Source: Glandiceps talaboti (Eukaryota; Hemichordata; Enteropneusta; Spengelidae). From it: a stretch of DNA of 64,000 bases. The stretch is from positions 5,621,001 to 5,685,000 of the forward strand of contig NC_135556.1 of the NCBI RefSeq assembly GCF_964340395.1, in the 5' to 3' direction. Below, in pieces: positions 1 through 55,841 of the stretch (positions are counted from its first letter, which is position 1; each line of letters begins with the position of its first letter). Both the position numbers and the translations under genes were made by a program. The notes under the pieces were generated by a model. The model did no database searches. It worked only from the letters and a program-made list of their open reading frames with translations, and was not told the origin of the DNA.

Positions 1-881
1 GGCAGAGTTGGCGAGTTTCTTTAGTTTAAGAGTCTTTCAAGGCAAGTTTTAGACTACCCTGGCAATAATTTCACATCATTTTCTCTAAACGATAGTACAA
101 CTAAAAAAATAGCAATTAATCTTTAATCGTAGGCTCAAATATTTAAGAAAAGTTTAATACCATTATGACAGTAAAGATAGTTGATCTGATTGTTAGTTGA
201 CTGCATGAGTGACCTCTGGGGTGAGGTAGTCCGAGCAGCCCCGCCCCCCCCCCCCGCCATAGCAGATCTAGGGGTGATTTGGTTCTATTGAGGCAATTTT
301 AGGTTATTCATAGCCATTAATGTAATATTTCACAGCTTCGAAATCTTAAGTTAATGTAAGTTTTAAATGTGTTTCGCATGACACGTACAAGTGGGCCAGG
401 TAGTATCCGTAACATTGGTATAGTGGCATTACTCTTGCAGATATAGTTAATGTCACTGATGTGTTAATGAATGTTAGGTGCTCATACCTACTATGTATAA
501 TAGAAATTGGAATCTGATGAGATGTGGTAATTTGTAGTGTCGATAACATGAAGTGTTCAAAATAGAAAGCATTACAATGCGTATTAATCCCTTCATACTG
601 AAGAATAGTTCTTTACATTTATAAACTATCTATATATACCATTACGGAAATTTCAATTTTCGCCCCGTGAAGCATATTGGTCATTGATTGTGAAATACCC
701 AAGTATTTACATGACATTTTCTGTAACTACATGTAGTGTGGTAGGTAATACAAAGTTATGTTTGAGCGTCACTCCATGTGAAGTAATATTCTATTAATTG
801 TATTCATCAAATAACTTTCGAAGGCAGAAACCATCCCAAAATTATTTGAATCTTTTGACAGTGTTTGATTTACAATTTCAG
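1..881. other. No gene recognised; intergenic or intron
   Basis: AT-rich sequence with a C-tract near 241-256. No convincing exon is visible. It may be the intron upstream of the SLC7 exon that starts at 882. Confidence 0.4.
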
Positions 882-1031
882 ATTGGTGTAATTGTTACGT
901 CGTATGTCAGAAAAGGTATCAATAGACTGTTGAATTTTACCTCATTTGAAATATTCCAGGTGACGAGTGGAACTGTTGCTTCCCTTTTATACCTCCGATG
1001 GAAACGACCAGACATTCCTCGTCCATTTAAG
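882..1031 (+). CDS. Partial SLC7 (LAT family) amino-acid transporter, internal exon
   Basis: A 150-nt, 50-codon phase-0 exon. It is bounded by a polypyrimidine-AG acceptor (AG at 880-881) and a GT donor at 1032 (AAG|GTAGAT). The translation aligns almost without gaps to the late transmembrane region of light-chain amino-acid transporters: an LLNFTSF stretch, a hydrophobic helix, then LYLRWKRPDIPRPFK, matching the family pattern LxxRxxxPxxxRPxK. SLC7 light chains exchange amino acids across the plasma membrane, usually with an SLC3 heavy chain. Earlier exons would lie left of the window. The next expected exon (after PFK, phase 0) is not downstream on this strand. A matching one sits at 2624-2798 on the minus strand. 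Family assignment is by my own comparison with SLC7A5-like proteins; the exact paralogue is unknown. Confidence 0.72.
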
Positions 1032-1274
1032 GTAGATTTTTCATTCCTCTTTCTCTTGTGCTATTGAATTAATATTATCAATTAACAGTCACTATTCTGT
1101 CATTTGTCCGGGAAGGGCGGGGAGTTGTTTTGCTGTCTCCTTGATTATTTTTCAGCAAAACACAAACATATTTCCTTTTCGGTAGTAATGTGCCCCTAAG
1201 TCACATAATGAAATACTGTACAAATCAACAAACACTGAAATTATCATATTTTAATAACTATAATGATAAGGCAT

Positions 1275-1610
1275 GATGGGTGAATGTTAGCGTGTCCGGC
1301 TTGGAATCTGCAGGTTGCAGGTTCGAGCCCCATTGCTGCCGTTTGTTTCGGAGTGGCTAAAGTCCTTGGGCAAGATTTGAACCACTGTGCCTCAGTCCAC
1401 CCAGCTGTATAATTGGGGACCTGGTAGGACAGGGGTTGCAATGTGAATTCTTTAATCCTATGCGCTTATAAAGGCTGCAATGGAGTTGATGAAGTATAAA
1501 GGGCCGTTGTGCCGATATGATTCGAGCCAGGGGTAATAATTGTATTAAAAGCGCTTTGAGCATAGAGTGGGAAAGCGCTATATAAACACTAACCGTATTA
1601 TTATTATTAT
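1275..1610 (+). mobile_element. tRNA-derived SINE with target-site duplication
   Basis: The 5' part has a tRNA-like pol III promoter: an A-box-like TTAGCGTGTCCGG and a B box GGTTCGAGCCCC. The 3' part contains AAAGCGCTATATAAA-type sequence and a TTA-repeat tail. The 336-bp body is flanked by an exact 8-bp direct repeat TAAGGCAT (1267-1274 and 1611-1618), which marks both ends as a retroposed insertion. It lies between the two SLC7 exons. Confidence 0.75.
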
Positions 1611-1619
1611 TAAGGCATT

Positions 1620-2130
1620 GTGACAGAACATACCCATACAATTTATACATTTGAAGAATGTACAACTTTACATCAAGCGTGACGTTTGATGTAAATATTT
1701 ATTATGTATAGCATTCAACATATTGACAGTAGCTAAATGAATTCTTACTTCTCTCCAAATATGTCCCGATAATTAACTAGACCTATTTTTAATCAGGTGA
1801 ACAATATAACGTACAATATTAAAGAGTTCAAAGGTTTGGTAGGGATTTAGGTTCGATATATTCCAGAACTATTTCATATTTTTCCGACCGAAGAAAAGTT
1901 CACTTCCCTTCTCTCTACAAACCACTCACCGTATACATCATCTAGCAATTTTCATATTTAAGTCATGTAAGACAAGAAGAGGGAATTTTATCCAGTTATG
2001 AATGAACCGGACACCTATAAATGTTTTTCATTTTCAACATTTATTTATTAATAATTGTACATATAAGTTTGTTGATCGATCCCGTCTTGTCGTGTAAAAT
2101 ATCACATTTTTTGTATCATGAACAGTGGCC
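1620..2130. other. No gene recognised
   Basis: AT-rich non-coding sequence between the SINE and the left arm of the inverted repeat. No exon or RNA gene is visible. Confidence 0.4.
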
Positions 2131-2132
2131 CT

Positions 2133-2206
2133 TTACTAAAATAAATAATTTAGGTTCAAACCGTGACCTATATTTTATAAGTGTCATTCCACAACTAAAT
2201 CACAAA
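2133..2206 (+). repeat. Left arm of 74-bp inverted repeat
   Basis: This arm is the reverse complement of 2827-2900 with about two mismatches. The arms enclose about 620 bp that carry the minus-strand SLC7 exon and a GA microsatellite. Confidence 0.85.
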
Positions 2207-2239
2207 GCCACACAGGTTTACACTCATACGGAGACAGAC

Positions 2240-2243
<4 letters not shown>

Positions 2244-2312
<69 letters not shown>
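2244..2312. repeat. (AG)n microsatellite
   Basis: About 34 uninterrupted AG dinucleotides, preceded by a few GACA units. It lies inside the segment enclosed by the 74-bp inverted repeat. Confidence 0.95.
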
Positions 2313-2623
2313 CAGTCAAAATCTAGAAGTCACTTTATTCCACGTTTCCCAAACATTGAAATTCTACTTGTAACCTTGAAATTATAGTGACGTCATTGGT
2401 TCTAAATTTGTTATGAAACTAACGCCCCCGAGGTTTAATTTGGTTCAGACGATAAGAAATTTCATAGCCCCCTTCGCACCCCCAATTTCTTTCGTGGGGG
2501 CTCCTCAGCCCCCTGCCGTAAATTCTGCTCGTTCCCTAAGACAGAGAACTATTTTGCTGATATTGGTGTTTACGCTGATATTGGTCTTTATGTTAATATC
2601 ATAACTGTATTGACCCCCCCTAC

Positions 2624-2798
2624 CTGTAAAGTTTTGGAAAAATTTGGATTTGTTTTTCCACTTTCCAAAGTAGTATACCGGTACACCAGTCAGAATAATT
2701 GCTACTCCGATTCCCGCTTCAACAGGTGCCGCGATTAATCCAGTTACTTCCAGGTATATTACGAATAAAAAGAATATAAAGGGTATGAGTAGAGCAAC
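2624..2798 (-). CDS. Partial SLC7 amino-acid transporter, next exon, opposite strand
   Basis: A 175-nt minus-strand exon, phase 0 in and phase 1 out. Its acceptor is at 2800-2799 (TCTTCAAG|GTT) and its donor at 2623-2622 (ACAG|GTAGGG). The translation begins VALLIPFIFFLF, continues through a membrane helix and the strongly family-like APVEAGIGVAIILTGVPVYY, and ends in a basic KWKNKSKFF segment. This is what follows RPxKV in SLC7 proteins, so it reads as the direct continuation of the exon at 882-1031, which is on the other strand. Either this piece has been inverted (it sits between 74-bp inverted repeats) or it comes from a second copy. The C-terminal exon was not found. Confidence 0.75.
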
Positions 2799-2826
2799 CT
2801 TGAAGACAACACATACCGTCAAGTTT

Positions 2827-2900
2827 TTTGTGATTTAGTTGTGGAATGACACTTATAAAATATAGGTCACAGTTTGAACCTAAATCATTTATTTTAGTAA
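2827..2900 (-). repeat. Right arm of 74-bp inverted repeat
   Basis: Reverse complement of 2133-2206, about 97% identical by eye. See the left-arm entry for what it encloses. Confidence 0.85.
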
Positions 2901-3350
2901 TGACATTACAACTTGTGTTCTGGCATTATTAGAACTGTTGATTGCATAGTTCGTAGTTCCTGTACATTTTTCATTCATATAATAAATTATGTCATCGGAT
3001 CATTTATAAGTTAAACCCTAATACCATGTTCGAGTTCAGTTAATTTCAAATAATGATTAAGAATACACCGGTAAGTAGAATACTGTGTTATTTGCAGAAA
3101 AAATCACACCCTAAAACATATAAACTCATATAATTACAAATTATCGATAAAAATCGTTTAACATCCAACGTTCACTTTCTGTATATACAAAAACAGACTT
3201 GTTTATTGTTGCTTAACGGCTTTTTTTAAAAACGTACATACATGTAATCTGGTTCGATTTATTAAAAATCAAAAATAATTACGCATTTCTTATCCACACT
3301 ATGACTTTAAATGATTCACTTCGTTGCCTATTTTTCCCTTCAACATGAAC

Positions 3351-4550
3351 CTACACAAATATTATCACATTTTCATTCTCTGTTTTCAAAGATTTTAAAG
3401 TTGTTTTAAGTTCAGTCAGCTCAGTTTCTAGAGCACTAACCTTTTCTAATATTTTGGTTTGGATTTCTAAGTCATGTCTAAATTTGTAAAAATCGTTGTC
3501 ACCGTCATCACGTAGCTCGTTTCCATGTGACCATCTTCTGCTAGTTTCTGGTTCAATAACGCTAACTGTGTTAAACCTGCTTTGATTTGATGTTTGCTCT
3601 CTGCGACAGAAGATCGCTACGAAACCACTTCGAAATGGACGACACCAAACCGCGTAAATGAATGGATTGAGACAAACGTTACAGGCCGCAAAAATTATAG
3701 TGAAATTGTAAAATTTACTATTCAAGTCAATTTGATAGCCAAAATTTGCGCTGAGGTATAGAAACTGGTTTGGCGCCCAACATATTCCAAAACATAAGCA
3801 GACGATCAGAAACATTTTCACCACTTTCTTTCTAGCTTTAGTAGTTAGACTAGAAGATGTTGCGTCGCAATTCTGTGAAGAGTGCCGAAGCGCCATGAAT
3901 ATTCTTCCATACGCTAGAAGGAGGAGTAACAGCGGGATGAAATAAGTGGTGAAGAAAAGTCCGATGCCTGTGAAGGTTTGATACCATTCTCCAAATGGCC
4001 ACTTGTATCTGCACGTCTGTTGCTCAGCATCGTACGAACTGTTGTATACGCAGAAACTCTGCATTATGAATGCTGACAGCCAAACAACGATGATGATCAA
4101 AGATGCTGATGGTTTCCTCCTCTGAGTTTTGTAAGAAAGTGGGTGAACTATCGCAAAGTACCGTTCAACTGTGATGGCCAAAAGACTGTATGTAGAAGCA
4201 ACTAAACTGACCCACAGGAATGTTGCCTTGAACGTCCGACAGTATATCTCCCCTAGTATGCCAGACGGAATCGGGAAAAAACCTCGAAGAGTTCGAGGAA
4301 TTAGAAATACTGACGATATGAAGTCAGCAACTGCTAAAGACACGGTTAGCTTGTACGTCAGTTGACTACGAAGAGACTGTCGTCCTAACATGACAACGAT
4401 TACTACAAAGTTACTCACGATGCCAACGATAGCAATGATGATTTCAGTGGTCTGGACATAGCTCCATTGTGGACCTGTTGCCGAGTAGGATGTTGAGGCG
4501 TTATTACCAGATGTGTATGATCCATTGGATGTATTCATTTTTAACACCAC
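3351..4550 (-). CDS. Class A (rhodopsin-like) G-protein-coupled receptor, intact, single exon
   Basis: A 399-residue receptor in one exon. The N-terminus (about 1-33) is rich in N-glycosylation sequons (NTS, NGS, NAS). Seven membrane segments follow. TM1 is about 36-56. TM2 holds LAVAD (72-76). C104 before TM3 and C180 in extracellular loop 2 can form the usual disulfide. TM3 ends in ERY (129-131). TM4 has W157 and TM5 has P206. TM6 has CWAP (257-260) and TM7 has NPFIY (295-299). The roughly 90-residue tail ends in a leucine heptad segment (I367, V371, L374, L378, L381, L385, L388) and the hydrophobic terminus IIFV. ATG at 4550 is used; a second ATG four codons in could also start. It is probably a peptide-type receptor coupling to heterotrimeric G proteins, but I do not recognise the ligand family. 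A decayed inverted copy lies at 9738-10939. Confidence 0.9.
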   Translation of the reverse strand: MVLKMNTSNGSYTSGNNASTSYSATGPQWSYVQTTEIIIAIVGIVSNFVVIVVMLGRQSLRSQLTYKLTVSLAVADFISSVFLIPRTLRGFFPIPSGILGEIYCRTFKATFLWVSLVASTYSLLAITVERYFAIVHPLSYKTQRRKPSASLIIIVVWLSAFIMQSFCVYNSSYDAEQQTCRYKWPFGEWYQTFTGIGLFFTTYFIPLLLLLLAYGRIFMALRHSSQNCDATSSSLTTKARKKVVKMFLIVCLCFGICWAPNQFLYLSANFGYQIDLNSKFYNFTIIFAACNVCLNPFIYAVWCRPFRSGFVAIFCRREQTSNQSRFNTVSVIEPETSRRWSHGNELRDDGDNDFYKFRHDLEIQTKILEKVSALETELTELKTTLKSLKTENENVIIFV

Positions 4551-5822
4551 ACAACAGCTTGCTATTCAACATTATGTACTTGTAACATTGCCAACTTTCG
4601 TATTTATAGATAAGGCCAAAGTAATGAAATGTTATGGTATGCATCCATACAAGCGATCGCGATGGATTGAACAATTTCATAAAAAAGACAATGTATACAT
4701 TTTGAGTAATGTGCTCTATATAATTCCTAAGTTAAAAGGTTTACTACACCATAATTATTTTCTGGCCGTACAACTTACGACGCATATTTACGTCCTGATA
4801 ACATATTTGTTTGTGGCAGCTATGACTTTCGTAGCAAAAAAAGGAGAGTAAAATGAAGAACCGGAAGAGAACAGCGATCATATGGCAAATAAATTTTATA
4901 CAGTACACAAGGGTAATTAGCAAAAAATATATTGCTTGCGAGCATTTCAAATTATCTTCCAAAGTGATCCATACGTTTACCATAGACTTTTGTTCGTTTG
5001 GCTTTAGTCAAATCTTGCAACAATCCCCATCAATTTTCCTCTTTATCGATTGTAATAATTGCAATCTGACCTGTTCATACAGGTACTTAGTGACTTGATA
5101 TGAAAATTTCACAGAGTATATAAAATCAAGTTTGATCTGCATATAGAATTCATCAAATATACAATACTGTCACAATGGAATCCAATTAATAGACGCAGAA
5201 AGATGAACAATTGAATGAAAACGTGTGTGTACTTATACCTTTTTTGTAAATATATAAGCCTTATTGGAAATGTAAAACGGCGAGAAATAAATGTTTGCAT
5301 TATATTTACAATACTGTTCAAATAACAACCATTCAAAATAAACGTACAATACAAAACATAACATTTAGTATTCTGGATTAAAATGGTTAGACAGGCAGTG
5401 CAATTAGATTGTAACCATTACAATCAAATGTATGGCTACCCTGCAATTTAACTACAGCATGTTATCATGAATTGTGTAAGATGAACGCATGTCAATGTCA
5501 CGTGTTCACGTGTTCATCAGAAAATAAGATGTTTTTTTTTTAAAAAACAATGAGGACATTGTCTGATGAAGGCGGAAGAACATCGTGTCTTTGCAAGTAT
5601 GTCACTACTCCAGGAAATTATAGTATGTTTATGAGTCTTCGCAGATTATGAATATTTATTAGAATGCACACCGATATATTCATGACTACATGCATCTTAA
5701 ATCATGCGTACAGTGGCACTTTTAAGATAATTGCATCGTATCAGTATACGACAGCTGTCTTTCGGATGTACATGTCTTTCGGCTGTCTTTCGGATGTACA
5801 TTGTCCTGTAAACCTTATTATC
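4551..5822. other. No gene recognised between GPCR and LINE
   Basis: AT-rich upstream region of the GPCR gene. A short direct duplication (TCTTTCGGATGTACAT) lies at about 5758-5801, just before LINE homology starts. No exon is visible. Confidence 0.4.
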
Positions 5823-7465
5823 AAAGCGAAAATTGCAAGTTCTATCAACGAATCTTCCAGTGACACCTCTCAGGTTATTCCTACTTCTAATTCTGTAAAT
5901 GGTAATTTTAACTCGCTCAAAACTAAATGGCAGACTGAACTTTCAGGTGTTTTCAAAAACACATTTAATGAGCATGCAGAGGCCATTGAAACCCTCAACA
6001 AAAAGATTGTTAGTACTAACAAATGTATGTTGCAGCAGGTTGACATGGACATCTTAACTACAGATCTTTGTAAGATTTTCATAAGTACTGCAAAGTCGGC
6101 CGGTATAACCAAAGAAGTTACTCTTAGAAAACCAAAAGGCAACAAGAAACAGTTGAATTCGAACAAACCATGGTTTGACAATATTTGTTTACAACAAAGG
6201 TGTGAATATATTAGAACCAAAAATAGGCTAAAGAAAATTAATACTTTCGAAGCCAAAATGGAGATTAGAAACAGAAATAAAGCATATAAAAAGCTAATTA
6301 AGCAAAAATACAGATGCTACCACAACAGTTTGCATAAGAAATTAAGGAATTTAAAGAAGGAAAACTCCAAAGAATTCTGGGATATTATTAATAAGGCAGG
6401 TAACCCCGAAACTAAGCTAGGAAAAGTGTCCATGGAAGCCTTTTTTGGTCATTTCAAGAACCTCAGCCAAAACTGTAATAGTTCTGAGCAAGATGATGCG
6501 ATATTTAACCCAAGCACTGTAAGCCACTCTGCCAATGAGTTTATTAATTTTCCCTTCACTGTGGATGAAGTCCAAAAACTTGTAGCTAAGCTTAAGAACA
6601 GGAAAGCCTGCGGAATTGATAATATCACTAATGAATTTATTAAAAATAGCCCAGACAGAATTTTAGAGATAATAGTAGCCCTCTTTAACCTTGTGCTTGA
6701 TACGGGTATAGTCCCTAGTGATTGGTGTATTGGTATGATAAAACCCCTGTATAAAAATAAGGGATCCCCTGATGACCCAGACAATTATAGAGGAATTACT
6801 TTACTTAGCTGTCTTGGGAAGCTATTCACGTCCGCACTTAATGCCAGGTTAAGCTGGTTCATTGAGAGCACTGGTACCCTTGGTGAAGAACAGGCAGGAC
6901 TTCCCATTTCAGATCGTCGTTTTCAAATTGAGAACCACAATAACTTGTGCACTATCTGCAACCTAAACGAATTAGGCGATGAATACCATTACATCCTTGT
7001 TTGCCCTGCTTTTAAAGAATTTAGACATAAATTTATCAAGAGTTATTATTACACGAAGCCAAATACACTAAAATTTGAAGAGTTACTTAACTGTAAATAT
7101 TACACCGAAACACTTGCTAAATTTGCTAAAATCATTATGACAAAATTTGAGTAATCTTTATATATATACATGTAGTCTCTTTCATCTGCCAGGTAACTGA
7201 CTTTTGCCTCTGTTATGCATGTTTTTTGGTTTTATTTTCTCAATTTTTCTTTTTGTGTAAGCATTCTTTTCCCACTTGTGTATAATGTATATGTTTTCTG
7301 TCTGTCACTTCTGTATATATCAGTTGTTTTTTGAAAGTACTTTTTGATTTGTATTTTTTGATGTGTATATTTTAACTATCTCTCATACTCCCATTGAAAG
7401 GGGTCGCAGAGTAAATAAATTATTATTATTATAATTATTATTATAAATTATTATAAATTATTATA
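5823..7465 (+). mobile_element. 5'-truncated, internally deleted non-LTR retrotransposon (LINE) with reverse-transcriptase remnant
   Basis: An open frame ending at 7154 carries LINE protein from the linker before the reverse transcriptase onwards. The first RT blocks are clear: KNRKACGIDNITNEFIK near 6596, then WCIGMIKPLYKNKG and DNYRGITLLSCLGKLF near 6780-6830. At about 6895-6920 the frame jumps from EEQAG straight to the C-terminal zinc-finger-like segment (CTIC near 6950, then H and C near 6985-7000). The catalytic YxDD palm region is therefore missing. The frame stays open across the junction. The 3' end is a TTA/ATT-rich tail at 7415-7465, typical of L2/CR1/Jockey-like LINEs. It cannot move itself. 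It lies between the two GPCR copies. Confidence 0.8.
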
Positions 7466-7650
7466 GTATAATCAGTATGTAGATATTTATTTTTAATTTC
7501 GTAGAGTGGGAATTTATATTACACTTAATGAGGAAAAATAATAAAACGTTGGCCTGTATTTCATGAGAGTATTTTTTATGAGGAAAATGTTTTTTTTTTA
7601 AATTGGATTAGGTTTTTTTCGATGGAATATTTTTCCATGGGGATTAGGGT

Positions 7651-8628
7651 TTTTTGCACAACTGAACTGAGGTTCAGTAGTGCTCTAGGCATGGCGAAAT
7701 TTCTGTGTGTGTGTGGGGGGGGGTGTAAACGACTTAAAGTCAAAAACCGCCAGACCGATTGCCTGGTATTTGGTGGAAACATTATACTTGGGGTGTATAT
7801 ATGGGAAATTGTTCAAATAAAATAACCGCATCAGAGATGTGCGTTTTGGGTAAAAAAAATGTGAGTTTTGGTCAAACAACTTTTTAAAAAACTACTGGGG
7901 CAGATTGGCCTAGAATTTGGTGGTAACATTCTTAGGGGTACAGTGTGTAAATTAAGATTTTTCAAGACATGATGATTCCATCAGTAATATACAAATTAAG
8001 GCTAAAATTGTGTCTCTTTGGTCAAAAATCGTTAATTCCAAAACTACTGTAGGCAAGTGAATAAACATTCAAATATTTATGCAAATATCCCTAGCAACCA
8101 TGACCACGCCCATTCAACAGCCAAACGGTGATGTATTTCACAAAGATAAAAACATGAACGCTTAGACAAGTGAACAAACATTCAAAAACTGTATGCAAAT
8201 ATACCTAGCAACAGTACCACGTCCATAACAACAGCCAAATGATCACATATATCGCAAAGATAACAGGGATTAATAGACAAGTGAATAAACATTCAAAAAC
8301 TGTACGTAAATGTGCCTCGCAACAAGACCATGCACATAGCAACAGTCAAATGATCATATATATTGCAAAGATAACAACATGGATTAATAAACAAATGAAT
8401 AAACATTCAAAATGTATGCAAAATTTGTCTAGCAACATGACCACGCCCATAGCAAGAGCCAATTGATCGCGTATATTGCAAAGATAACAACAGGTTTTGA
8501 TGGGCAACTGGATAGTCATTCAGCAAATAAACACCTATACCTAGAATGGATCAGCATGTGGGTAAACATTTTTAAAAACTGTACAGTTGTGCTACAAAGC
8601 TACAACGCCATAGTGGCGCTATTTTTTC
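7651..8628 (+). mobile_element. HINE/pearl-like non-autonomous repeat, copy 1
   Basis: Starts with GCACAACTGAACTGAGGTTC and a short hairpin, followed by a GT/G-rich microsatellite and a unique stretch. About four diverged ~114-bp tandem units follow (recognisable by AGCAACNNNACCACGCCCAT). It ends with ACTGTACAGTTGTGCTAC. The two ends share TAGCACAACTG-like sequence in inverted orientation. Related copies lie near 27.7-28.3, 52.5, 54.2 and 55.8 kb. The layout (subterminal inverted motif, microsatellite, internal tandem units) resembles Helentron-associated or pearl elements; that class is inferred. Confidence 0.6.
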
Positions 8629-8629
8629 C

Positions 8630-9055
8630 ATTTCATTGCATTGGAGTATTTTTTTTTAAATTGTGACCTTTTTACCTACGGCTAGAGGCAGGCGACACTT
8701 ACAGTTGAAGCTGTCAACCCTGCAAGTGGTGTCGGGGTATGATTTCGCTAAGGGACCGGTCTGTTTCTCCAGTTGGGGGTGGGTGGTGGGGGGTGGTGGT
8801 GGAATCTTCCATCGGGCCAACAAAAAGTGACTGACTCTCCCTGTCTGTAAAACCAAAAACAGGCTCCCCCCCCCCCATATCACTAAATTCTAAAACATGA
8901 TGACCCCCCCCCCCCCATATCATATTCACATGACAGGTATTTTTTGATCGTGACTCAGTGTGGACTGCTTGACTGTCTTGCAAATACTTTATAAGATCCT
9001 GGGATAGGACTATCATATAATTATTGACTACACAGGGTAAATATATTCCAAAAGG
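8630..9055. other. No gene; G/C homopolymer-rich sequence
   Basis: Several runs of 7-12 C or G (near 8868 and 8905) in otherwise unremarkable sequence. No coding signal is visible. Confidence 0.4.
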
Positions 9056-9530
9056 AGTTTAATAGAACCTTGACAATGAAAAGTAGAGGGAAGGCTTCAG
9101 AAGGAAATATGTACACCTCTCATGGGGGGGGGGGGGTCCGACGGGGTCTGGAGTTTTTTTACTCTGAAAAGTCAATTTTGAGACGAGTCAGACACTTTCA
9201 GACAATACTTTCCAAGCTTTACAAGACAGCACCAACATGTAAGAAGCAACTACATAGGGTTGAAATAGTTTTCAATATAGTTTGATAGCACCTTGACAGT
9301 AAGAGGTAGGGGGAAGAGCTTGAGACTGGGATGTATGTGTCCACCTCATGTGAGGGGGGGGGGGTCCTTTGGGGTTTCCCCTAGAAGCACCAGATGTATT
9401 TTTACTCTAAAAGTCAATTTTAGGCTATTCAGACCCTTTCAAGCAATAACTCCAAAGCTTTACAAGACAGCACCATCAAGTATCAGAAAACTATTCTTTA
9501 CAACTTACATAGGGTTGAAATATGTTCTTA
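9056..9530 (+). repeat. Two-copy direct repeat (~235 bp units)
   Basis: 9056-9280 and 9281-9530 are diverged copies. Both carry a CCTTGACA start, a 9-13 base G run, the string AAAGTCAATTTT and the shared string CTTTACAAGACAGCACCA. They look like a tandem duplication of a repeat fragment. Confidence 0.65.
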
Positions 9531-9737
9531 AAAAGTTAAATGACATCATTATAATAAAGGTCAGCACATCTAACTTTGTCCGAGAATACACACTCGATCT
9601 CGCTGCAGCTCCATCTCGAGGCAACAAAGGGTAATGTGAAAGCTGAATCTAAGTACAGGAGGAAGCAGTCAAGCATACCTAATTACTTTTCAGTAATCTA
9701 TGTGCTAAGTTACGTGTAATTTCAGACAAGCTGTCGT

Positions 9738-10939
9738 GTGGTGGTAAAAATGAATACATCCAATGGATCCTACACATCTGGTAACAACGCCTCAACATCC
9801 TACTCGGCAACAGGTCCACAATGGAGCTATGTCCAGATCACTGAAATCATCATTGCTATCGTTGGCATCATGAGTAACTTTGTAGTAATCGTTGTCATGT
9901 TAGGACGACAGTCTCTTCGTGCTCGCCTGACGTACAAACTGACGGCGTGTTTAGCAGTCGCTGACTTTATATCGTCAGTATTTCTAATTCCTCGAACTCT
10001 TCAAGGTTTTTTCCCGATTCCGTCTGGCATACTAGGGGAGATATACTGTCGGACATTCAAGGCAACATTCCTGTGGGTCAGTTTAGTTGCTTCTACATAC
10101 AGTCTTTTGGCCATCACAGTTGAACGGTACTTTGCGATAGTTCACCCACTTTCTTACAACACTCAGAGGAGGAAACCATTGAACAGCATCTTTGATCATC
10201 ATCGTTGTTTGGCTGTCAGCATTCATAATGCCGAGTTTCTGCGTATACAACAGTTCGTACGATGCTGAGCGACAGACGTGCAGATTCAAGTGGCCATTCG
10301 GAGAATGGTATCAAACCTTCGCAGGCATCGGACTTTTCTTTGCCACTTATTTCATCCCGCTGTTACTCCTCATTCTAGCCTACGGTAGAATATTCATGGT
10401 CCTTCGGCGCTCTTCACAGAATTGCGACGCAACATCTTCTAGTCTAACCATTAAAGCTAGAAAGAAAGTAGTGAAAATGTTTCTGATCGTCTGCTTATGT
10501 TTTGGAATATGTTGGGCGCCAAACCAATTTCTTTTCCTCAGTGCAAATTTTGGCTATCAAGTAGACTTCGATAGTAAATTCTACAACTTCACAAGAATTT
10601 TTGCGGCCTGTAACGTTTGTCTCAATCCATTCATTTACGCGGTTTGGTGTCGTCCATTTCGAAGTGGTTTCATAGAGATCTTCTGTCGCAGAAAACAAAC
10701 CGTTAAACACAATTAGCGTTGTCGAACCAGTAACGAAAACGAGGAGACGGTTGTCACAGGGAAACGAGCCACGTGATGACGAATACGATAACAACGAGTT
10801 TGATCAATTTAGAGATCACTTAGAAATCCAATCCAAAATATTAGAAAAGGTTATTGCTCTAGAAACTGAGCTGACTGAACTTAAAACAACTTTAAAATCT
10901 TTGAAAACAGAGAATGAAAATGTGGTAATATTTGTGTAG
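9738..10939 (+). pseudogene. Inverted, frameshifted copy of the class A GPCR
   Basis: A close copy of the receptor at 3351-4550, in the opposite orientation. Frame 1 (from 9738) runs from the glycosylated N-terminus through TM3, ERY and HPLSY. A 4-bp insertion at about 10179-10184 then shifts the frame. The rest of the helices (W of TM4, CWAP, NPFIY) continue in another frame to a stop at 10714-10716. That stop is exposed by a 14-bp deletion near 10700. The coiled-coil tail continues in the third frame to the TAG at 10937. Similarity to the intact copy extends into both flanks. Only two indels break it, so it is young, or one of them is a sequencing or allele error. No splice sites that would remove the shifts are visible. 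Confidence 0.85.
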
Positions 10940-12240
10940 ATTCATGTTGTAGGGAAAAATAGGCAAAGAAGTTGACCACTTACATTGTAAACTGTGACTG
11001 TGACTGTTAACAGTGTTGATGCATGATATAAGGGTGCACATAATCAAGACATGTATTCGTATCACAATATTAATTGTGTCTCATTTATTCAACGCAAACG
11101 TATTTAGACAGAATTACACATTAAAATATGTGACCGGGAGGGGGGATACGAAAATTCTTGGATTCATTTCAGTGGACATGAATTTTTTTGAGAGCGCAAA
11201 GAGGGGGCTGCAGAAAAAAATTTGACCAAATTATTTCTCCACAAGCTCCCCCTGCTGTAAATTCTGATCCTATTCTAAGAAACATCATACATAGGATTCT
11301 TCTATAATATATACTCAGAATTACCACGGCATCACACGTTAAAAGGGATATTTATTTAATGAGACTTATTGTCAATGACTGAATTGTCAATACATTATGT
11401 TATCTTTTTGTGAAGATTGTGTTGATGAACTGTGACCGTTTTATATGGGTTTATAAGTATTTTCGAATGATAGTAATGTAATCTCTAATTTATGCACTTT
11501 TAAATTTTAAGTGACTGATACACAATAACTTATTAATGTCAACTTTATATTACATACATTATTTCTTTTGAAGGACCGACGTTTCTATAGTTACACATAG
11601 AAATACATCTTTTGTCATTTGCACATTTTGTTGAAGGCAATAATCTTTCTAGTATAACATACGTCATCGAGGTCAATATCACTATTTAATGCCTGCACAA
11701 GTCAAGGGTTGATACGCTTTACCAAAATTTTAATGATGCCCAAGCTTAAAGGTGATGACACAATCAAAGTTTTGGTAAAGAATGCCAGCCCGAGGGCAGG
11801 AATTAAATTGTTATATTGTCCGAGCTCATATGTTATAAGATTATTAATGTTATTACACCATCCAGTTATTCGTCAAATCATTGACATGTCCTTTTGTCAT
11901 TTGTCATCATTCATCAGAGATAGAAAAGTGCCCCTTGTGTCGCTCACTGTAATCACTTTGTCATGTCTGACGTGTAATATCAGAAAACATCACTTTGGTG
12001 TACAGAATATATGCACATCAGTAGAAATAACTCCAGTGGGTTATGGTGCCGGGCAGTAGTCTCTGCACATGCAGGCAATACCGTCGCACAGGCAATAGTC
12101 ATGTGATTCGATTCTGATCAATGACAGCTAGTGTAAGAACGCCGGTATGACAATAAATCACTCACCTTAGGTGTAAAAGTGTAATATTTCAATTGGTTCA
12201 TGATTCTGATATGTTGTCATTCAAAATTTCTTTAGTTCGG
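10940..12240. other. No gene recognised
   Basis: AT-rich intergenic sequence. Short open frames here have no recognisable domain. A G-rich patch near 11130-11260 resembles 2410-2530. Confidence 0.4.
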
Positions 12241-23000: not shown

Positions 23001-26000
23001 ATACCAAGTCTTTGTTTGTAACTCAATACGTTGACTTTGTACATTTTGTATTTGTGATTTCGTATTGTTTTTTTCAAGTAGAAAAACATAGTAAAGTTGT
23101 TTTATCACTTATCCATGCTTTTATTAAACAATTCACAAGGTATTCATTCCCTTTAAAGTAATCACAACAGAAGAGATTTCTCACCACAAATTCCTTTTAA
23201 TAGAGGGGAACACCACTCCAGGAAATAAAGACGACATTTCCTTAAACTTTGTGTTCTATAGAGTCATTTAATAGTTTTACATCACATACATTACATGCAA
23301 TTTCTGAGAAACAGCAAGCTGATTTTGTCCCCAAGTTGGGATCTTTGATATGATGTGGGAGTCAGCAGACTGCTTATATGCAATGAATATGTACGACATT
23401 TTCACTGAAGTTAATAGGCACTACCATTTAATAGGTTACGACTCTTCAAAACTCTAAGTTCATGAAAATGCCTTGATTTCTTGGAGTAGTGTTCCCCTTT
23501 AAAATGAGAAGATTTTCATTACAACTCACCTGATATTCATAGAACCCAGTCTTGAGAGCTTCTTTGTACATCATCTTTTCATAATTCTGTTCTGTTTCTT
23601 GGATTCCTTTGTCCATTTCAGTGGCAAACACTCTATCGTCAAAGCTTTCTATGGGGCCACCTCTCATACTGTCTTTGGTGGCGACCATCTCCTTCACCCA
23701 TTCTAAGAAGTTGTAAAGACGCAGAATTCCAGCATCTGCCATAGCTTCTACAAAGTTGGCATCTTCTTGTGTGTCTCCAGCATCAGCTAAGGCAAGTCTC
23801 ATACCTGTCAAGGCAAGATATGGAAAAACTGAATTTTAATTTTGTTATCAAAGTGCTATATTTTTTGGTAAGCACTGAAACTTTACATTGCAGAGAGTGT
23901 CTACATAAATAGATTTGGGTAAATGTGATGTCATCACTAGACGTTTTCCTATAAAACCTTGTAGAATGTCCCCTAAAATGGCCAAACACATGAGAAATGC
24001 AGTAGGGTTTCTTTACGAGATTTCAAAGTTAAGTAAGTTACCAAAGTGTTATCTCATCACAGTAAACAACAAGTAAGTTGATAGCAGTAATTGATACAAG
24101 TGTACTACAGACAGACACAAGACTGGACTTTTTCTTTAAACTGCGGTCTACCCAGGTCCAAATTTGTACAGCCCAATCAACCATCTACTAACCAAACCAC
24201 TTACCATCTGCTGAGTACAACTCCACTGCTTCGTAGAGGGTCAGGAAATTTCCAGTCTGTTTAGACATCTTCTCTGAATTCAGCAACAAATGTCCATTAG
24301 ATCTTACACTTCTTGGCCATTTATACTCAGGGTCCTCAGGCCACAGAGCACAGTGATTGTACAGGAAGTACGTCAAGTGGTTTGGTACAAGGTCTTTTCC
24401 AGACACCCTCACATCAACAGGATACCAGTACTGGAATTCATTCCGGAGTTTATTCAGTGCTGACTGCGGGATAGCTGTTCCAGCTGGGAAGGGTGCATCT
24501 TTGTAATAAATGTAGTCCCACACTTCTGGAGTAAGTTGTTCTGGTCTGAGAAGGAAAGGTGGTTTTGAATCAATTGACAACAAACAGTGCATGCAAATGT
24601 TACTGGGCTGACAAGAGTAGTGTTACGCATTTTTGCTGAAATGTTATTGTCTGATATAATGCTGAGTGGTTAACTACAGAGACATGATAAAGTCTAATGT
24701 CTGCTTACTACAACCACCAATACTTGTTTGGACAACTGCAGTTCCTTTGTTTATATTTATTTCTCTATATCTAGAGACATCACACTATCCTTGCCAGCCC
24801 TGTATACACAGAAAACATACAACTGGAAAATAAATTTCACAGATTTGAACATCCATCATAAAAATGTGTTGTTGCTTTGTTCTGTTTTACGAAATTTCAA
24901 CAAACTGAATACATGTTGTCCAAATACACGTTGTACAAAAACATGTTCTCCTTGAGTGTTTTTTTTCACATACAAATATTTACAACAAACAGAGTTTCAC
25001 TGACAGTCTGCCATTCCTACTACACAAGGGCCCTTATTTCACTTGTACTTCATTCAGTGAAAGAAATCCATTTATGATAATATCAACATCAAATTTACAT
25101 CTACTTCCTAATGTATCATTAAACATGGCTATAGCCAACACTTACTTGATATTAAGAGGACTTGGTCCAGAGCCATCTACTACACCACCTTGTAATAGAT
25201 GACATACCGTGTAGTATGCCATATAGATAGTGGAGTCTGACAAGGACTCTATCAAATATTGTTCATCCCATGGCAGTTTTGTACCTATAAAATATAACAC
25301 ACAACTTATTAATAACCATGGCAGTTTGATTTTACATTTAAAAGAATATCAACATATTAGACAAATTGTAATAACAGAAAGTCACATGTATACATTGTAT
25401 ATGGTTAGATGTATACAGCAATATCTGTTTTAACTTTCAAAGGCCAGGGTTTCAATCCTATGTTTTCACATCAGTATTAACATATCAGTTAAAGGCCAGG
25501 GTTTTAATCCCAGGTTCTCACATCAGTGTTAACATATTCAGTGGTTTTTTGTGAACTATAAGGATTACATAGGATTATTCTTTCATTCTGGACAAATTTT
25601 TTCTACAGCTCTGCCAGACAACTGTTTTTCACATTTAAATATTAATCTTAATCCGAACTTCTTAATCCAAAATCTATGCAAAAGTCTTTTGTCATTCCAT
25701 GATACACTATGAAACTCCTATCCGTACGTATTTGCATAATTAAGTAGCATTTGTACTTAGGATTTCTGGGCAATACATGGTATGACATCAATGTTGACTG
25801 TGATTGACTAAATTCTGTTTCACATATCAGATGACAATCATAACAAGGTACGGATACTTCAGTTTATAATTATATATGATTTCCAACAATAATTTCAAAT
25901 TTAACCCATTTGGAGACTTTAAATATCCAGTAGACATGTATCTAGTGTGGTGTACAGGATAGTTAGTTTATAGAATCAGAATCAGAAATATTGGGGATAT

Positions 26001-29000
26001 TTTCTCTATTTACCTAAACCATAGGATCTTGAACAAGCATGTTCCTGTATCCAGTCTAGGGTGGCCTGGAAATTTCTCCTGGTTTCTTCTGCATATCTGT
26101 GTTAATGAAAAAATAATGAAAAAATAAGGTTTAATGAATTGGAATGATTTACGATGCCTCTTGGCCAAAAGTTCTTCTGGCCAATCACAATCTGACTTGT
26201 GTTTCAGTCTTAGCCAATGCTCCTCTAGCCAATCACAATCTGACTTACATTTCAGTCTTGGCCAATGCTCCTATAGCCAATCACAATCTGACTTACATTT
26301 CAGTCTTGGCCAATGCTCCTCTAGCCAATCACAATCTGACTTACATTTCAGTCTTAGCCAATGCTCCTCTAGCCAATCACAATCTGACTTACGTTTCAGT
26401 CTTGGCCAATGCTCCTCTCGTCTGATTCTTCCATTCCTCGTTACCATAATCCAAGAACCATTGATCACACAACGCCACCACACATTCATCCGCTGATCTA
26501 GACACTACTTGTCTTTCTGGTTCCATGTAAATCACAGCTTCATTGGAATCCACCATTTTCTTCTGGACCAATTTCTTAACATCCTGGACCTTTTGACCTT
26601 TGTGATCCCCAATTATCATGACCTAAGCAAGATAACAAAGTCATACAATGATGCATGTTGGGTAAACAGATGTCAATTACATCTTTCATACAATGTATGT
26701 AACACTCTAAAGTGTGTACTCAGAACCTTACTTTTCCAAATCTGGGACCCCCTCAATGAGAAATGACTGGAATTTGGCAAACAAAATATGGTGACTTGAT
26801 AACATGAATGAATCACTGTTGCAAACAATCTGTCAGATTGTCTATAAACCATGAAGACTCTTGCAGGGAGGTTATTGTTCTGATCAACCAAGATTAGTCA
26901 TCAGTGTGTGAACTTAAGGGAAAATGACTACTGGTCATAAGGACCGACATGTAACAAATGCTGCTGGTCCTTATGGAAAACAGCTGGTCCATATTCAATG
27001 CAGTTCATGTTCACGACCTGTATCTACACCCCCTATTTACAGATTAAATGATTTTGAACTTTAATATGATACAGCATATCTTTAGATATAAAAGTAAAAG
27101 AGAGTACAACGAATTGTTCACTATCCACTATTATTTCATACAATTTCCACTCACAGAGTCAAAAAATAGCGCAAATATTGCGTTGCCGCACAACTTCATG
27201 TTCAGGGCAATGATAGATATATAATTTTTTGAAGATTTAAAGTTGTAACCAAAACAAAATTTTCATACCTAATTTCCATCAGCATAATCCAGCCATCCTA
27301 TGTTGGAAGTGTACAAGACAAGTATAGCAACATCCTAATCAAACTTTAAAGGGATGTGTCTACAAGGTTTTGTACTTCTTTATTTTTTTAAATCAATTTG
27401 GAACCAAGTCATACCAATGTAACAGGTTTATCTTTCTTGGTTGTCTTATTGTAATATTGTAAAAGCCAGCTACATTCAGTTTATATGGGTAGGTGATGAA
27501 ACAGCTGTCTTACAATATATTACATAATCCAGTCATAAACCAAACTGGCCATGCTACAGGCTTTACCACCAGAGGAAATAGTAAAGTAAACATTATAGTT
27601 AATTAACAATGTACTGTTCTCACTGTGTCAGCTATTAATGAGGACAAATCTACACATTCTCAACAAAGTTAAGCTCAATCTACTGGGTAATTTCAGAGTT
27701 GAAGATTTTTGAGGAAAAGCAATGACAAAGAATAACACTTCTAGAAACATCTCACCAAGTTTCAAACTCATTCACTTAGTATTTTTTGAGATATAAGTTT
27801 TTGACCAAAATTCACATTTTTACACCTTAATTCCATATCACTCATGAAATCATGGTATGCTTAACATATCTTCGTCCATACATCCCTAAATGCATTTCCA
27901 TTAAATTTCAGCCCAATCTGCTCAGTGGTTTTGGAATTATAGATTTTCAACCAAAAAGACACATTTTCAGCCCTAATTTGCATATCACTGATGGAATCAT
28001 CCCGTCATGAACAAATCTTACTTTACACCCCCTTAAGAATGTTCCCACCAAATTTCGCACCAATCTGCCCAGTAGTTTCTGAGTTTAAGTTTTTTGACCA
28101 AAAATCATATTTTTTTGACCCAAAACCCACATCCCTGATGCGATCACTTTCATTTGAACAATTTCCCAACTAGACACCAGAAGTAACATGACCACCAAAT
28201 ATCAAAGCAATCGGTCCAGCAGTTTTTGACTTTAAGTTGTTTACACACATACACACACACACAGACAGACAGACAGACAGACACTTTGCCATGCCTATAG
28301 CACTACTGAACCTTATCAGTTCAGTTGTGCTAAAAATAACTTGGAAGTAAATTTTGGATTTCCAACTAAGTCATTTTTGACTCTGTGAGTAGAGATTTTC
28401 ATTTGTAACTATGAACCCAGAGACTATGAATATTCATTCTCACATAATCTGTTCCTATAGACTATAGTGGTCTGAGTATGAATGTATTCATTCCACCATA
28501 GTAATACAGATACATAGATTGTAGATAATATGGGTGAATGAATCAATAAATCTACATAATCTGCAATCTCTAAGAGATCACAGTCATCTCCTTCCTCTCT
28601 GTACGATTCACTAAATTCTGAATCACATAATCCAAAGTCAGATTCATCGTCTGTGGCAACAGCTGATGTAGCTTTCCAACTCTTAGCGAACGTACATGTA
28701 GACCCACACATTCACATGATAGCAGAAAGTTTTATCGCGTAACTATCCCTCTCGAAAACTGTGTATTTGCTTTATTTCAATTTCCATCCACACAGTGACA
28801 CGGAGCGGTTTTGTCTTCCTTCAGTCTTTACAAATAGTACTGAAGCCCCCCATAAAGCCCTACCCGTATACCCTACCGTGGTGTATTGAGTATCGTCTCT
28901 GACTGTTTGTGTAAGAAATCCGACCATGATGAAGAGAACTATGGCTAAACATGTCTTACAGTGCGAGTTTTTTTTTTTTGACGTGGGAACGTGATATGGT

Positions 29001-32000
29001 AACTGTACTGTAATGTGTCATCCACTATGTACCCGTGTTTGGCATGATGCAGTAATTTTCCAGATACAACAATGGCAACAAAAATGCAACATTTCTAAGT
29101 CTACACGTTGATTACAACATGACAGGACGTACATTATCATATGCATCAAATTGAAAGCAATCAGACTACGCATTTTTTTAATACTGTTTTTACAAAAAAA
29201 CAACCTATCGTACTGAAGATATTTTACGAAGTGTACCTGCCTTCTTTATTAGTTAAAACGCCATTTTCGTATGTTTTCCGTCAGTTTGTTTTGATCGTGG
29301 CAACAGACATGGGGAACTCCGGTAAATTGATCGGGAAACCCATCTAACATTTACCGGCTTACAGTATGTTTCGTCTTCTCCTTCGGAAGCTCATTGCCGC
29401 CTTCTAAATATCGCCACATACTTTATAAATGCAACGTGGAACTGTCTCAAACACGTTAAAAGTTTCAAACACTTCGAGCAGTAAACTTTACAACAATGAT
29501 TACATGATTACGATATTATGGCGGAAAAAGACGCATGCGCTGAATGCGTATGAGTCTGAATGTCTAAGACGTTCTGATTAGACGCTGTATGCTACGTCAT
29601 GTAGACTAGATATCAACATTGGCAACAACACGTAGCGAGCTAGCTCTGTGTCGCTTGACTTGAACGAGATGTCGAGAGTAAAATAGGTAACACAAGATCA
29701 GATTCATGTAGGTGAAATTGGATATATCTTTGAATAAATGTTATTATTTACTCCAAATTTCAATCGGTCATAAGGACCGATACATTGTTGTAATTCTGAA
29801 AAACTGTCGGTCCGAACGGAAATCTGTTGGTCTCGGGCCGAAGGACCGGCGTTAATTTCACACGCTGTTAGTCATTATAGTAAATTGAGGGGAAAGACAT
29901 TGATCAAGACCCCTAAGGTTACAAGCAATAAAACTGTCTGCTATGATCGTCTTCACATGTTGGTGCAATAAAATCCACCACAAAGTGCAACTCCAATTAA
30001 CCACACAGTTCTTTGTATCAGAATTTAATCACTTTACACTGCATACTATCTATTAGAGTGACAAATTTTTGGCGGGAAAATGTGAGCATCTAAATACTTA
30101 CACCTTCATAGAATCCTTTGAGGTAGACTTTCTCTTTAGCTTCCTGTAGTTTATCTTTATCATTTTGACTCTGTACTTTAAACATATCACACGCAGTAAC
30201 AGCTGATAGGTTACCAAACTCTGGAACTTCAATTATGGGTATGGGGTCAAAGGGCAACACCATCTCATCTGTCACACTGTATTTTTCCCTGAATGGCTGT
30301 GAACATAATTATGCAAATATTATGTAAAAAACCAACAACAAAACCGTTACGATATGCAAATATATGCACAGAGACTATCAGACATAAGTATTTGAGTTGT
30401 TCCATGTTCTGTATAATTATTGTATGACACCATGCATGGTGTGCTAAAATAAAATTCCGTTGTAAAGCAGGGAAACACGGCCATTGACCTGCACTATGCC
30501 AAGAAAGCAAGATGGGCAATCTGCAGCTGATCTATAATATGATACAATTTTTGCCAATGTCTTTTCAATCTTTCACATTCTGTATGCTTTCCCCCATCAA
30601 AAAGACAACAAATATCAAAAGACTTTCATCCATCATAACCATGAATCTGTAGGTAGGCTGTCACAAGATGGCGCTATTCATCAGAAAATATGGGGAAGAT
30701 ACCGTCACAAGATGGCGCTCTTCATCAGAAACAATATGTATACATTGTTACCTGTTTCTTTTTCAGATCTCTGAGGGCAGCATAATCATCTGGGGCATCA
30801 GAAGGCACACTGGTGACGATACCTGAACCTTTGTTTTCTTTGATATTCAGCATTGGCAGAGTATAAATCACTTTGTATGAAGTCAATGGTGCAGCAAGGC
30901 CCATGCCCATAATGTCCTATTAAATACATCATACATTTATCAAAACAAGCAAAATGATGTGTGCAAACGATTAATCAAACTCTTACTATATCGTGTCAAC
31001 TGTGCTATAGAAACATCTCAGAATAGAGTTAGATGATCCCAGTTTCCTTTTCCATTTCTAATTCTACATGTAACATAATATATTCAAATTAGAGTGCTAT
31101 TCCTACATGTAGTTTATATTAGAATGTCAGTATGGCCTTTACATAGAGGAATGTGCCACAGCTTGAAACAACTTGTAATAACTTGCTTTTCAAGGACTGA
31201 AATAATACCATATTAATTCCTGTTCAAATTAGAATCTCTTTCTAATTCAAAATTGTCTGCCTTATACAATACAATATAACTGGAGTACCTGAAGGCAACA
31301 AGGCCATACCTTCTCAGCCATTACTACATTAGTAATATGAATCAATGTTTTATCAGAGTAAATCAGGAACCACTATTTTATTAACTTTACCTTGTAGTGC
31401 AATATCTAACCTTAATTAACATTGCAGTCACTGTCCTTTTGCCCGAGTTCAAACCCAGATTGGTGAAAACACCATACGTTTGTCTGTTGGGTCTGGTGGG
31501 CTACTGACATAACAGTGACTGATTTTCGTCTGTCAAATGTTCACACTTATTCAGTTACATTTAACAATTTAAAAAAAATGTGTAGATTTTTGTGCTAGGA
31601 ATAGCTTCCAGCGACTCATTTTTTCATACAGATATGTACACAATTACAAGCACATAATTGTACAGATTTACATTCAGGTTTGGACTTTCTGACAGAGTTA
31701 TGTTGCACGCTGGCTATCACAACTGTCACAGCTTTCCCAGTCAGTTCATAGTCTATCCTGTAGTGATCCTGGCCTGGGCATGTATAGCACCTGTGGGTTC
31801 CATTTGAGTAATCCCTGTCCAAGTCACTGACTGTTGGAGTCATTACATCAGGAGCACCTTGCAAATTTGCACTCGTCTTGTAAATGATACTCATCTAGCA
31901 TTACTACCTTACACTTATTTAGGAGAAAATCCTATCTTACCTGTCCTACGATGTTCAACAATACATCCACTTTGCCCTCTTCATTCATAAAGCCTTGATA

Positions 32001-35000
32001 TGAAAGATTCCTGGCAGCTCTTCTAGTTGAAATGAATACTTCTCCAGTCTTGAGTTGGTAGGCGATATATTTCATGTCAGGTCTCACCCAACAATTGGTC
32101 TGTCCATACATGGTTTCTGGCCTCAGAGTTGCAGCCACTAGAAACACTGGTTTCCCTGACAACGACCTAAAAGTAAGAAACAAATAACGTGTGTTTTGAC
32201 TCAAGAGCTATTGATACAAGTCACGGCAAGTGACGTCAGTGGCATGTAAATACTGATATGATGCATTTTTTATGATCAGACAGTATTGACCAAACACAGC
32301 AGATGAAATATTAGAAGAAACAGTATGTACTTTGTGTAAGTTTGCTCTGTATGACTGGAGACACTACATTTTTGTGGTATTTAGCTACAGGCTGCAAATT
32401 CAATCTTTTTAGCTGTCTGCTAATTTTGTCAAAACTGTAATTAATGAGTAAACATTTCAAACCTAGCAGGTAGAATGAAATTTCCTTTACTAGTTCCTTA
32501 TTTCCTGAATAACAGGATTCAATACTAATATTGTTAAGTGTTAACTGTTGACTGTTCTCGTACTGTGTGAGGATATTTTAACTAAAGGTTATAGAAGCAT
32601 GGTAATGGAGCCAGGAGAGGGGAGCTGCTCGTAATTCAGTTTCTTGCAATTTTATCTTCATTTTGGATGGGAACAAAGTTAACTTGAGGGCTTTGGAACT
32701 TTTGTACTGTCTTCAGTACAAAGATTTCATGTACTAGCACAGATGAGTCTGATTGTCAAGGTCATGAAACAAAGTGAAATCGATATGTCTGCTACAGTAT
32801 GTCACATTTTTGCCAAATGTGCATTTTGGAAATAAGACTGTACACAAACAGATGCACATACATACACACAGGCAGACAGATACACATGCAGAGACAGAGG
32901 CACAGACAGACCCACATCATACCTATAACTTCCTCTAGGTTACGCCAGTTGACAGCTAAAAATACAATAACATCACAGAAGATTGTGATGGCCATGCCGA
33001 CCACTACAAGTACACACAACAACATGTAAACATTATCAACACAACTATCATCCTTACGCAAGTTTTGGTGGATACGGCGCAACAGCTTTCATCTTGATTA
33101 GTGTATATTCCTGTGGGCCAACACCTTCACCACTGGCTCTGTCATGGTCCATACACGGTTGACCATCTTTTGGACTGTAGATGGTATACCTAGAAAACAC
33201 AATGTGTTATCAGTGATTTAAAAGATTTTACACACTTTACAACTAAAATATGACACTAAGGTTGGTGCTGATATGACGTAAATGAAAAATGGTCAAATGC
33301 ATCAAAAATCAGAGAATCTATTCAAGATTAACATCAATTCCTAATATAACAAATTCTTTCAAGATGGCCGCTAAACTACCTTCCTTGTCACTATTGAAAA
33401 TACAAAATAAATACAAAATAAATAAAAAACAAAAATTTCCTTGGAATCATTAAAATTAAATTAACACTATGATTTTGTTAACGTCACTCCAGGAAATAAA
33501 GACATTTTTATAAACTATGGGTTCTGAAAAGTCATTTCATGATGTTACATCATCTGCAATTTACTTTCGATTTCAGAGAAGCATCAAGTTAATCCTGTGT
33601 ATTTACAGGGTACTGTATCTTTGCTGTGAGCCATTGCATCATGGGAATCAGTAGAAAAAATATACTCAAGTTGCTAACTGAATATTCATGAGTCCTGAGT
33701 GGCTAAACCCTTCAGTGTGTAAAACATCTCCCATGATAATAGGACCCTTTTTTCCCTGAAATGAAGAGAGTAAGATTAAAGGCCTAACCTTTTGCCAAAC
33801 TTGACCTTGTTCCTGTCTCTGAGTTTGAAGAACTGCCACCTGACAAAGGAGTCGTAGAAAGGATTGACATCTGTTGTAATGAAGGACCTTCTCCAATCAA
33901 CCTACAAACATTATCACAGAGGTACAATATGAAGGAAATCAGTTTATAAAAATTCATTTACAATCACCCCAGTAATAGAAAGGGGGAAAGGGGTAGTAGT
34001 TTCCCATACAATCTACCATAATTTTGTGTGGGAACCCTGGTAGATTTTACCTGCTTTAATACCACCCTTAACAAAAACACTTATACTATGTATGTTCATC
34101 ATGGAGGCACCATGAATTCTGCCACATCTAGTGTGAACACCCAAGAGGATAAGTGTTTTGATTCAAACATGTCTGTTTGTAAATCCAAAGCATGCAGAAC
34201 ATTCAAATGAGGTCTCTATCTATTAAGATTCCAGAGTTGGTGGTCAAAACATCAATTTTTACAACAAATGTGGCTAAGAATCAGAGTGACATGCATCTGC
34301 AGAATAAAGTCGTAACTTGTTGTCACACAACTCACCTTAACACCCATGTTCTTCAGATCCAGTATAGCCCTTGGTGGGAAATATTCCAACCAATGATCAG
34401 TCTCGGCAAACTTCACAATTTCATCGTCTTCCAATCCCAAGGACTGCATGATTTGCCATTGGAATTTAGCACCACCAGTTTTAGCTACCAATTTGCTCTG
34501 ATGGTAATTAATAAAACAATCAACATCTGTTTTTTGAGATTTCAAGTAAACACAAGTATTCATCATTTTTTGAACAGTTTTGGTGTAATTTGAGTACATT
34601 TTTGAAATTTCATCGCCATAACACAAGGTATGCTTTGACATATTCATCATTTTGTGGACAAAATTGGTGTGATTAGGGTATATTTCTGAAATTGTGACTA
34701 ATTCTCAAATATTTATCTTTTGAAGAAAATTTGGGATCTACTTCAAGGCTTATCAGTAATCACAGATCTTAAATAGTTGAAAGATTCCTGACATTGAAAA
34801 CATCTTGAAAAGAAAGAAATAAGTTAGTATGATTGATAAATTAACATTTTACACCACCACTGGCAAAATAACGTCATCCTGGAGGTGAACAAGATTCAAA
34901 GAAGTTCAAAGACTGTTGAATTTATGTGACATACAAGTCATACATTGTAGATGTGGAATACGCCATATTTTAGAGATAAAAGATTTCAAGGTTTGGCCAC

Positions 35001-39959: not shown

Positions 39960-51584
<11,625 letters not shown>

Positions 51585-52371: not shown

Positions 52372-52505
52372 GGGGGGGGGACTGTTGAGGGTATTTCTTG
52401 GAGGGGAGAGAACAGGTTTGTTGTTGTTTGTTTGATGGTGTCTTTTCGTCATTGTAAACCACAAATCTCTTTATAACAACTACAGTATACGTCACCAAGA
52501 GGTTT

Positions 52506-52558
52506 TATTAGCACAGCTGAACTGAGGTTCAGTAGTGCTATAGGTATCGCCCAGCGCT

Positions 52559-52597
<39 letters not shown>

Positions 52598-54080: not shown

Positions 54081-54082
<2 letters not shown>

Positions 54083-54116
<34 letters not shown>
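54083..54116. repeat. (GT)n microsatellite
   Basis: About 17 GT units. It may be the microsatellite part of the repeat copy that follows. Confidence 0.9.
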
Positions 54117-54119
<3 letters not shown>

Positions 54120-55840: not shown

Positions 55841-55841
55841 A

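Follow-up and report, generated by a model that had tools for sequence, protein, structure and literature searches.

An exon of a LAT-like SLC7 gene lies on the opposite strand between inverted repeats in an assembled haplotype of Glandiceps talaboti

How do two neighbouring exons of one transporter gene come to lie on opposite strands, 1.6 kb apart as measured from the end of the first to the near edge of the second? The question is raised by a locus within a 64 kb stretch of DNA (hereafter the window, that is, the whole stretch analysed; 35.9% G+C, no N), in which two exons of an SLC7 gene, A and B, face each other and B is enclosed by an inverted repeat (Table 1). The answer that we favour, with moderate confidence, is that a small, probably young intragenic inversion splits the SLC7 gene in the assembled haplotype. 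Below we give the evidence for the two exons and for the repeat, then the geometry of the proposed flip, its age and the alternatives.

Table 1. Positions of the SLC7 exons, the repeat arms and the elements between them, in window coordinates
Feature	Positions	Strand	Basis
Exon A, SLC7 (LAT-like) coding, 150 nt	882-1031	+	Open frame, splice dinucleotides, PDB matches (Y+LAT1, LAT2, xCT)
SINE-like insertion with (TTA)n tail, intronic	1262-1612	+	Type by eye
Left arm of the 74-bp inverted repeat	2133-2206	+	Repeat search, alignment
Segment between the arms, with a (GA)n microsatellite towards its left end and with exon B	2207-2826		Sequence
Exon B, the coding exon of SLC7 that follows A (LAT2-like), 175 nt	2624-2798	-	Sequence matches, splice sites
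Right arm of the 74-bp inverted repeat	2827-2900	-	Repeat search, alignment

Exon A is free of stops and translates as IGVIVTSYVRKGINRLLNFTSFEIFQVTSGTVASLLYLRWKRPDIPRPFK. It is bounded by TTTCAG on its 5′ side and by GTAGAT on its 3′ side, and ends in phase 0 with the residues PRPFK. In phmmer searches the best match was Y+L transporter 1 (exon residues 11-50, E 5.7e-05); residues 12-50 matched LAT2 383-421 (E 9.2e-05) and residues 2-50 the b0,+ type transporter (E 0.013), with the first ~10 residues weakly aligned. Since the tblastn match to LAT2 begins at 927 and the phmmer alignments begin at residues 11 or 12, position 882 is the better start of the exon and, judged from these alignments, likely the right one, the alternative being an acceptor before 960. 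The start at 882 was already proposed in the preliminary description of this DNA, and we retain it.

Exon B, read from its higher to its lower coordinate, starts in phase 0 and ends in phase 1. It is preceded by TCTTCAAG and followed by the donor GTAGGG, and the acceptors and donors of both exons obey the GT-AG rule. Its best match was LAT2, with residues 2-57 aligned to 423-479 (E 3.5e-09). When the two peptides were joined, they aligned with LAT2 continuously over residues 383-479 with one 1-residue gap, and the E value of 3.4e-21 was better than that of either exon alone against the same protein. The next matches were a consensus-mutated xCT, Asc-1 and LAT1. The junction falls between LAT2 residues 421 and 422, in phase 0 on both sides, and the two exons encode neighbouring parts of an SLC7 light chain without overlap. 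In a control, the plus-strand reading of the exon B interval was placed behind exon A, and this ran into a stop after 1 residue. The Pfam AA_permease_2 profile scored 18 of 27 bits against an 82-aa version, below its curated cut-off, as expected for a fragment that covers the profile end only. By sequence similarity, then, A and B together belong to an SLC7 light chain of a heteromeric amino-acid transporter, of the LAT type and jointly closest to LAT2. The earlier observation that two exons for adjacent SLC7 parts, meeting in phase 0 after PRPFK, lie on opposite strands was confirmed.

The repeat around exon B was likewise confirmed as a 74-bp inverted repeat of ∼97% identity. Its arms are identical at 72 of 74 positions, in runs of 14, 14 and 44 nt, and are separated by 620 nt, so that the whole segment measures 768 bp; the inner edge of the right arm lies 28 bp from exon B. 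In a BLAST self-comparison of the window (dusted, E up to 1e-8, with query starts outside 44-49.5 kb), only the arms, of the 21 inverted pairs listed, combined a distance of less than 1.5 kb with an identity above 90%. Less similar hairpins occur elsewhere, for example 56230-56305/56352-56427 at 89%, among the 25 of 157 repeat pairs listed. Within the window the arms matched each other only, with no further copies. In a gapped extension of the arms, 6 of 300 shuffles scored at least as high as the outer flanks and 17 of 300 at least as high as the inner flanks; the outer value hints at slight additional similarity, and we kept the arm length at 74 bp. The SINE-like insertion between exon A and the left arm had no second copy in the window by blastn.

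We computed what a reversal of the segment between the outer arm edges, 2133-2900 (x becoming 5033-x), would do. Exon B would then occupy 2235-2409 of the plus strand, in phase with exon A and 1203 bp downstream of it. The preliminary description had proposed that recombination between the arms would restore collinear exons. The geometry and the phases fit this proposal, and recombination between the arms may have caused the flip. From the one assembled sequence we infer an inversion as the cause of the present arrangement, and also the direction of change, from uninverted to inverted. On this interpretation the window would carry the 3′ part of a LAT-like SLC7 gene on the plus strand, with the exons upstream of A falling left of the window, and a 768-bp piece holding one of the gene's last exons would have been turned around in the assembled haplotype. 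In its assembled orientation exon B is unable to splice in cis to exon A, and the gene or allele is therefore probably broken or truncated, and the allele presumably non-functional.

The flip would most likely have been a single DNA-break or replication accident. The arms may have been present before it or, at least as likely, may have been made by the flip itself, through a template switch or through a staggered break of which both sides were filled in. The longest unbroken identity that the arms offer for recombination is 44 bp, which is short for homologous recombination. In our judgement a single breakage or replication accident deserves somewhat more weight than repeated flipping. For classical inversions in people, the leading mechanism put forward is recombination between inverted repeats (PMC12229492). 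In Drosophila, staggered double-strand breaks leave inverted duplications at inversion breakpoints (PMC5080602), and microinversions arise at inverted repeats by break-induced replication or template switching (PMC8755829).

The arms differ at 2 of 74 positions (2.7%, confidence interval 0.3-9.4%), a divergence that bounds the age of the inversion only if the event itself gave rise to the arms and they have remained unconverted since. Under that reading the inversion would be young. We simulated decay of the exons in the absence of selection (2000 runs, with the indel rate assumed at 12% of substitutions), scoring whether exons and splice sites remained open. At half of the 2.7% divergence, that is, for one lineage, 73% of runs stayed open without indels and 48% with them. 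The proportions fell to 33% and 8%, respectively, at the upper-limit age of 4.7% per site per lineage, and to 13% and 0.5% at 9.4% per site. With so many runs open at the likely age, the intact exons fit a dead gene and give no argument for function. In this model, intact exons would be unlikely if the event were as old as the upper confidence limit implies.

Among the findings that would count against an inversion, the description of this DNA had named a complete second SLC7 gene on the minus strand that uses exon B. We looked for it with tblastn over the 64 kb, using a human LAT2 sequence as query. Exons A and B were the only matches with E < 2, so the minus-strand gene found no support in the window. 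Three further matches (E 2.3-4.3) were taken as chance. Neither exon A nor exon B had a second copy in the window. Since only A and B were matched with E < 2, the window shows neither a minus-strand gene to which exon B could belong nor an alternative exon B for the plus-strand gene.

SLC7 proteins extend ∼20-50 residues beyond the point at which exon B ends. Given such a tail and the donor at the end of exon B, one last coding exon is expected to follow. We scanned for it on the plus strand over 1032-23000, where the best score was 24 among 567 phase-1 acceptor candidates, and to the left of exon B on the minus strand, where it was 18 among 54 candidates. Controls reached 28 on the opposite strand and 20-31 in ten shuffles of the plus-strand stretch; the shuffles were sized to that stretch and run without a length filter, so the score for the 54 candidates is not properly calibrated by them. 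No candidate for the last coding exon stood above shuffle level on either strand, and tblastn with a few SLC7 tails gave nothing better than E 0.15 and 0.16. A continuation of the plus-strand gene beyond the right edge of the inverted segment is therefore putative, and so is the orientation of what remains of the gene. Such a continuation is the best test of that orientation.

To the right of the SLC7 locus the window holds a rhodopsin-family GPCR gene (3308-4561, minus strand), similar to galanin and somatostatin receptors, in a single open frame of 404 aa; its closest relatives in the PDB are galanin receptors. An inverted duplicate lies 5.2 kb away (9727-10982, plus strand) and is 91% identical. 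Around 10183-10268 its reading is divided between two frames, and it may be a pseudogene. A plus-strand open frame of 500 aa at 5652-7154 resembled, on visual inspection, a LINE-type reverse transcriptase that is broken, and Pfam returned for it only a weak, sub-threshold ZSWIM match. Further right, the open frame at 24191-24622 (minus strand) matched cytoplasmic leucine-tRNA ligase (E 5.9e-52); those at 23449-23835 and 31935-32207 appeared by eye to be part of the same leucyl-tRNA synthetase gene and matched no Pfam family. With its introns, the GPCR gene and the synthetase sequence, the window has the character of animal DNA. Repeats make up other parts of the window. A tandem array of 4.5 kb (44639-49099; 50-bp unit, 89 copies, 94% matches) has long open stretches in three frames, and a second tandem repeat lies at 42311-43677 (47-bp unit, 29 copies, 91% matches). 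A dispersed family, with copies ∼65-87% identical and partly with internal tandem units of ∼113 bp, was found at 7650-8641, 27729-28337, 52505-53438 and 54046-56183. An Rfam scan of positions 1-12000 gave no match, nor did a tRNA scan.

These neighbours bear on two other explanations of the locus. Exon B might be what is left of a duplication in which the 3′ part of the SLC7 gene was copied in inverted, tail-to-tail arrangement; the minus copy would have kept exon B only and the plus copy lost it, the arms being a surviving bit of the duplication. The adjacent GPCR gene, which begins ∼400 bp right of the right arm and has an inverted copy of its own, speaks for such a history. We nevertheless hold it to be unlikely: it requires complementary losses, one in either copy, after which each exon is present exactly once, and the GPCR copies, at 91% identity, look older than the arms at 97%, so that the two are not obviously products of one event. 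A single event for the GPCR duplication and the arms is less likely on the same difference in identity. The other explanation is that the true chromosome carries exon B on the plus strand between the arms and that the assembler chose the wrong orientation. A short-read graph could flip at an inverted repeat with identical runs of 14, 14 and 44 nt, but any read that crosses 74 bp fixes the orientation, and k-mers longer than 44 nt are unambiguous. Assembly of the 89-copy array and the lack of any N in 64 kb suggest, moreover, that long reads were used. We regard an assembly error as distinctly unlikely.

The 74-bp arms that end a 768-bp unit resemble terminal inverted repeats, as if a MITE-like transposon had captured an SLC7 exon. 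One TA lies at 2134-2135 and another at 2898-2899, close to the outer ends, and they may represent a target duplication of 2 bp; but this dinucleotide is palindromic, and any inverted repeat containing it would look the same. Direct repeats of 5-12 nt were absent within 8 bp of the arm edges; two 4-nt direct matches were the only ones, chance-like and neither of them at both edges. No other copy of the arms occurs in the window, and a captured exon would leave exon A without a next exon of its own. A transposon is thus very improbable. Alternatively, by analogy with mod(mdg4) of Drosophila, the gene may function through trans-splicing, with exon A joined to an exon B that is transcribed off the minus strand. 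The open frames of both exons and their compatible phases and splice sites suit this view, and FlyBase curators provide a precedent in nine mod(mdg4) transcripts that draw on opposite-strand exons, at a locus that in their opinion was shaped by small inversions (PMC4528330). Exon B ends in a donor, however, and would need a second join, while mod(mdg4) trans-splices alternative 3′ ends; in our simulation, exons can stay intact at the likely age without selection. We give trans-splicing hardly any credence. Just as little falls to the broader idea that a nuclear gene of an animal works with one exon invertible or split off to the other strand, in which case the arms would keep both orientations in the population or the soma, or B would be supplied in trans.

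An inversion in the assembled haplotype, the explanation that we prefer, has relatives among described systems. Human-chimpanzee microinversions comprise 59 cases, all flanked by perfect or near-perfect inverted repeats of 3-75 nt per flank (PMC8755829). The turned part measures 17-33 nt, 31 of the 59 lie in introns, and the sole exonic case spares the coding part (PMC8755829). The SLC7 locus is like them in its near-perfect flanking repeats, with 74 nt inside the 3-75 nt range, and in its intronic arms; it is unlike them in that the turned part amounts to 620-768 bp and includes a complete coding exon, and in that it is deduced from one sequence whereas the human-chimpanzee set came from genome comparison (PMC8755829). 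Human intragenic inversions also have both breakpoints in one gene, and loss of function is the harm that their authors expect as likely (PMC12229492). Of the human cases, 1356 of 1586 affect a single intron, in contrast to the coding exon turned here (PMC12229492). The staggered-break inversions of Drosophila are large, chromosomal and checked against the uninverted form (PMC5080602), while the SLC7 case is known in its assembled form. At mod(mdg4) the exons of one protein likewise lie on opposite strands, but trans-splicing has been demonstrated there and the exons are alternative 3′ ends (PMC4528330), whereas it would be hypothetical in the SLC7 case. Intragenic inversions and microinversions flanked by inverted repeats are thus known kinds. 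What is unusual here is that exactly one coding exon has been taken, together with both of its splice sites. A search of open-licence papers found nothing on an exon inversion between inverted repeats in SLC7.

Were the arrangement an assembly error, its significance would lie only in a warning for gene models; were the exon invertible or strand-split in a working gene, transporter activity would be switched or rescued. If the inversion is real, it is a clean, sub-kilobase event that turned a single coding exon without damage to its splice sites or frame, and it is young enough for its arms to differ at no more than 2 of 74 positions. Such inversions would be easily missed, as gene annotation would simply omit the exon; as polymorphisms for the presence or absence of a transporter they can be tested.
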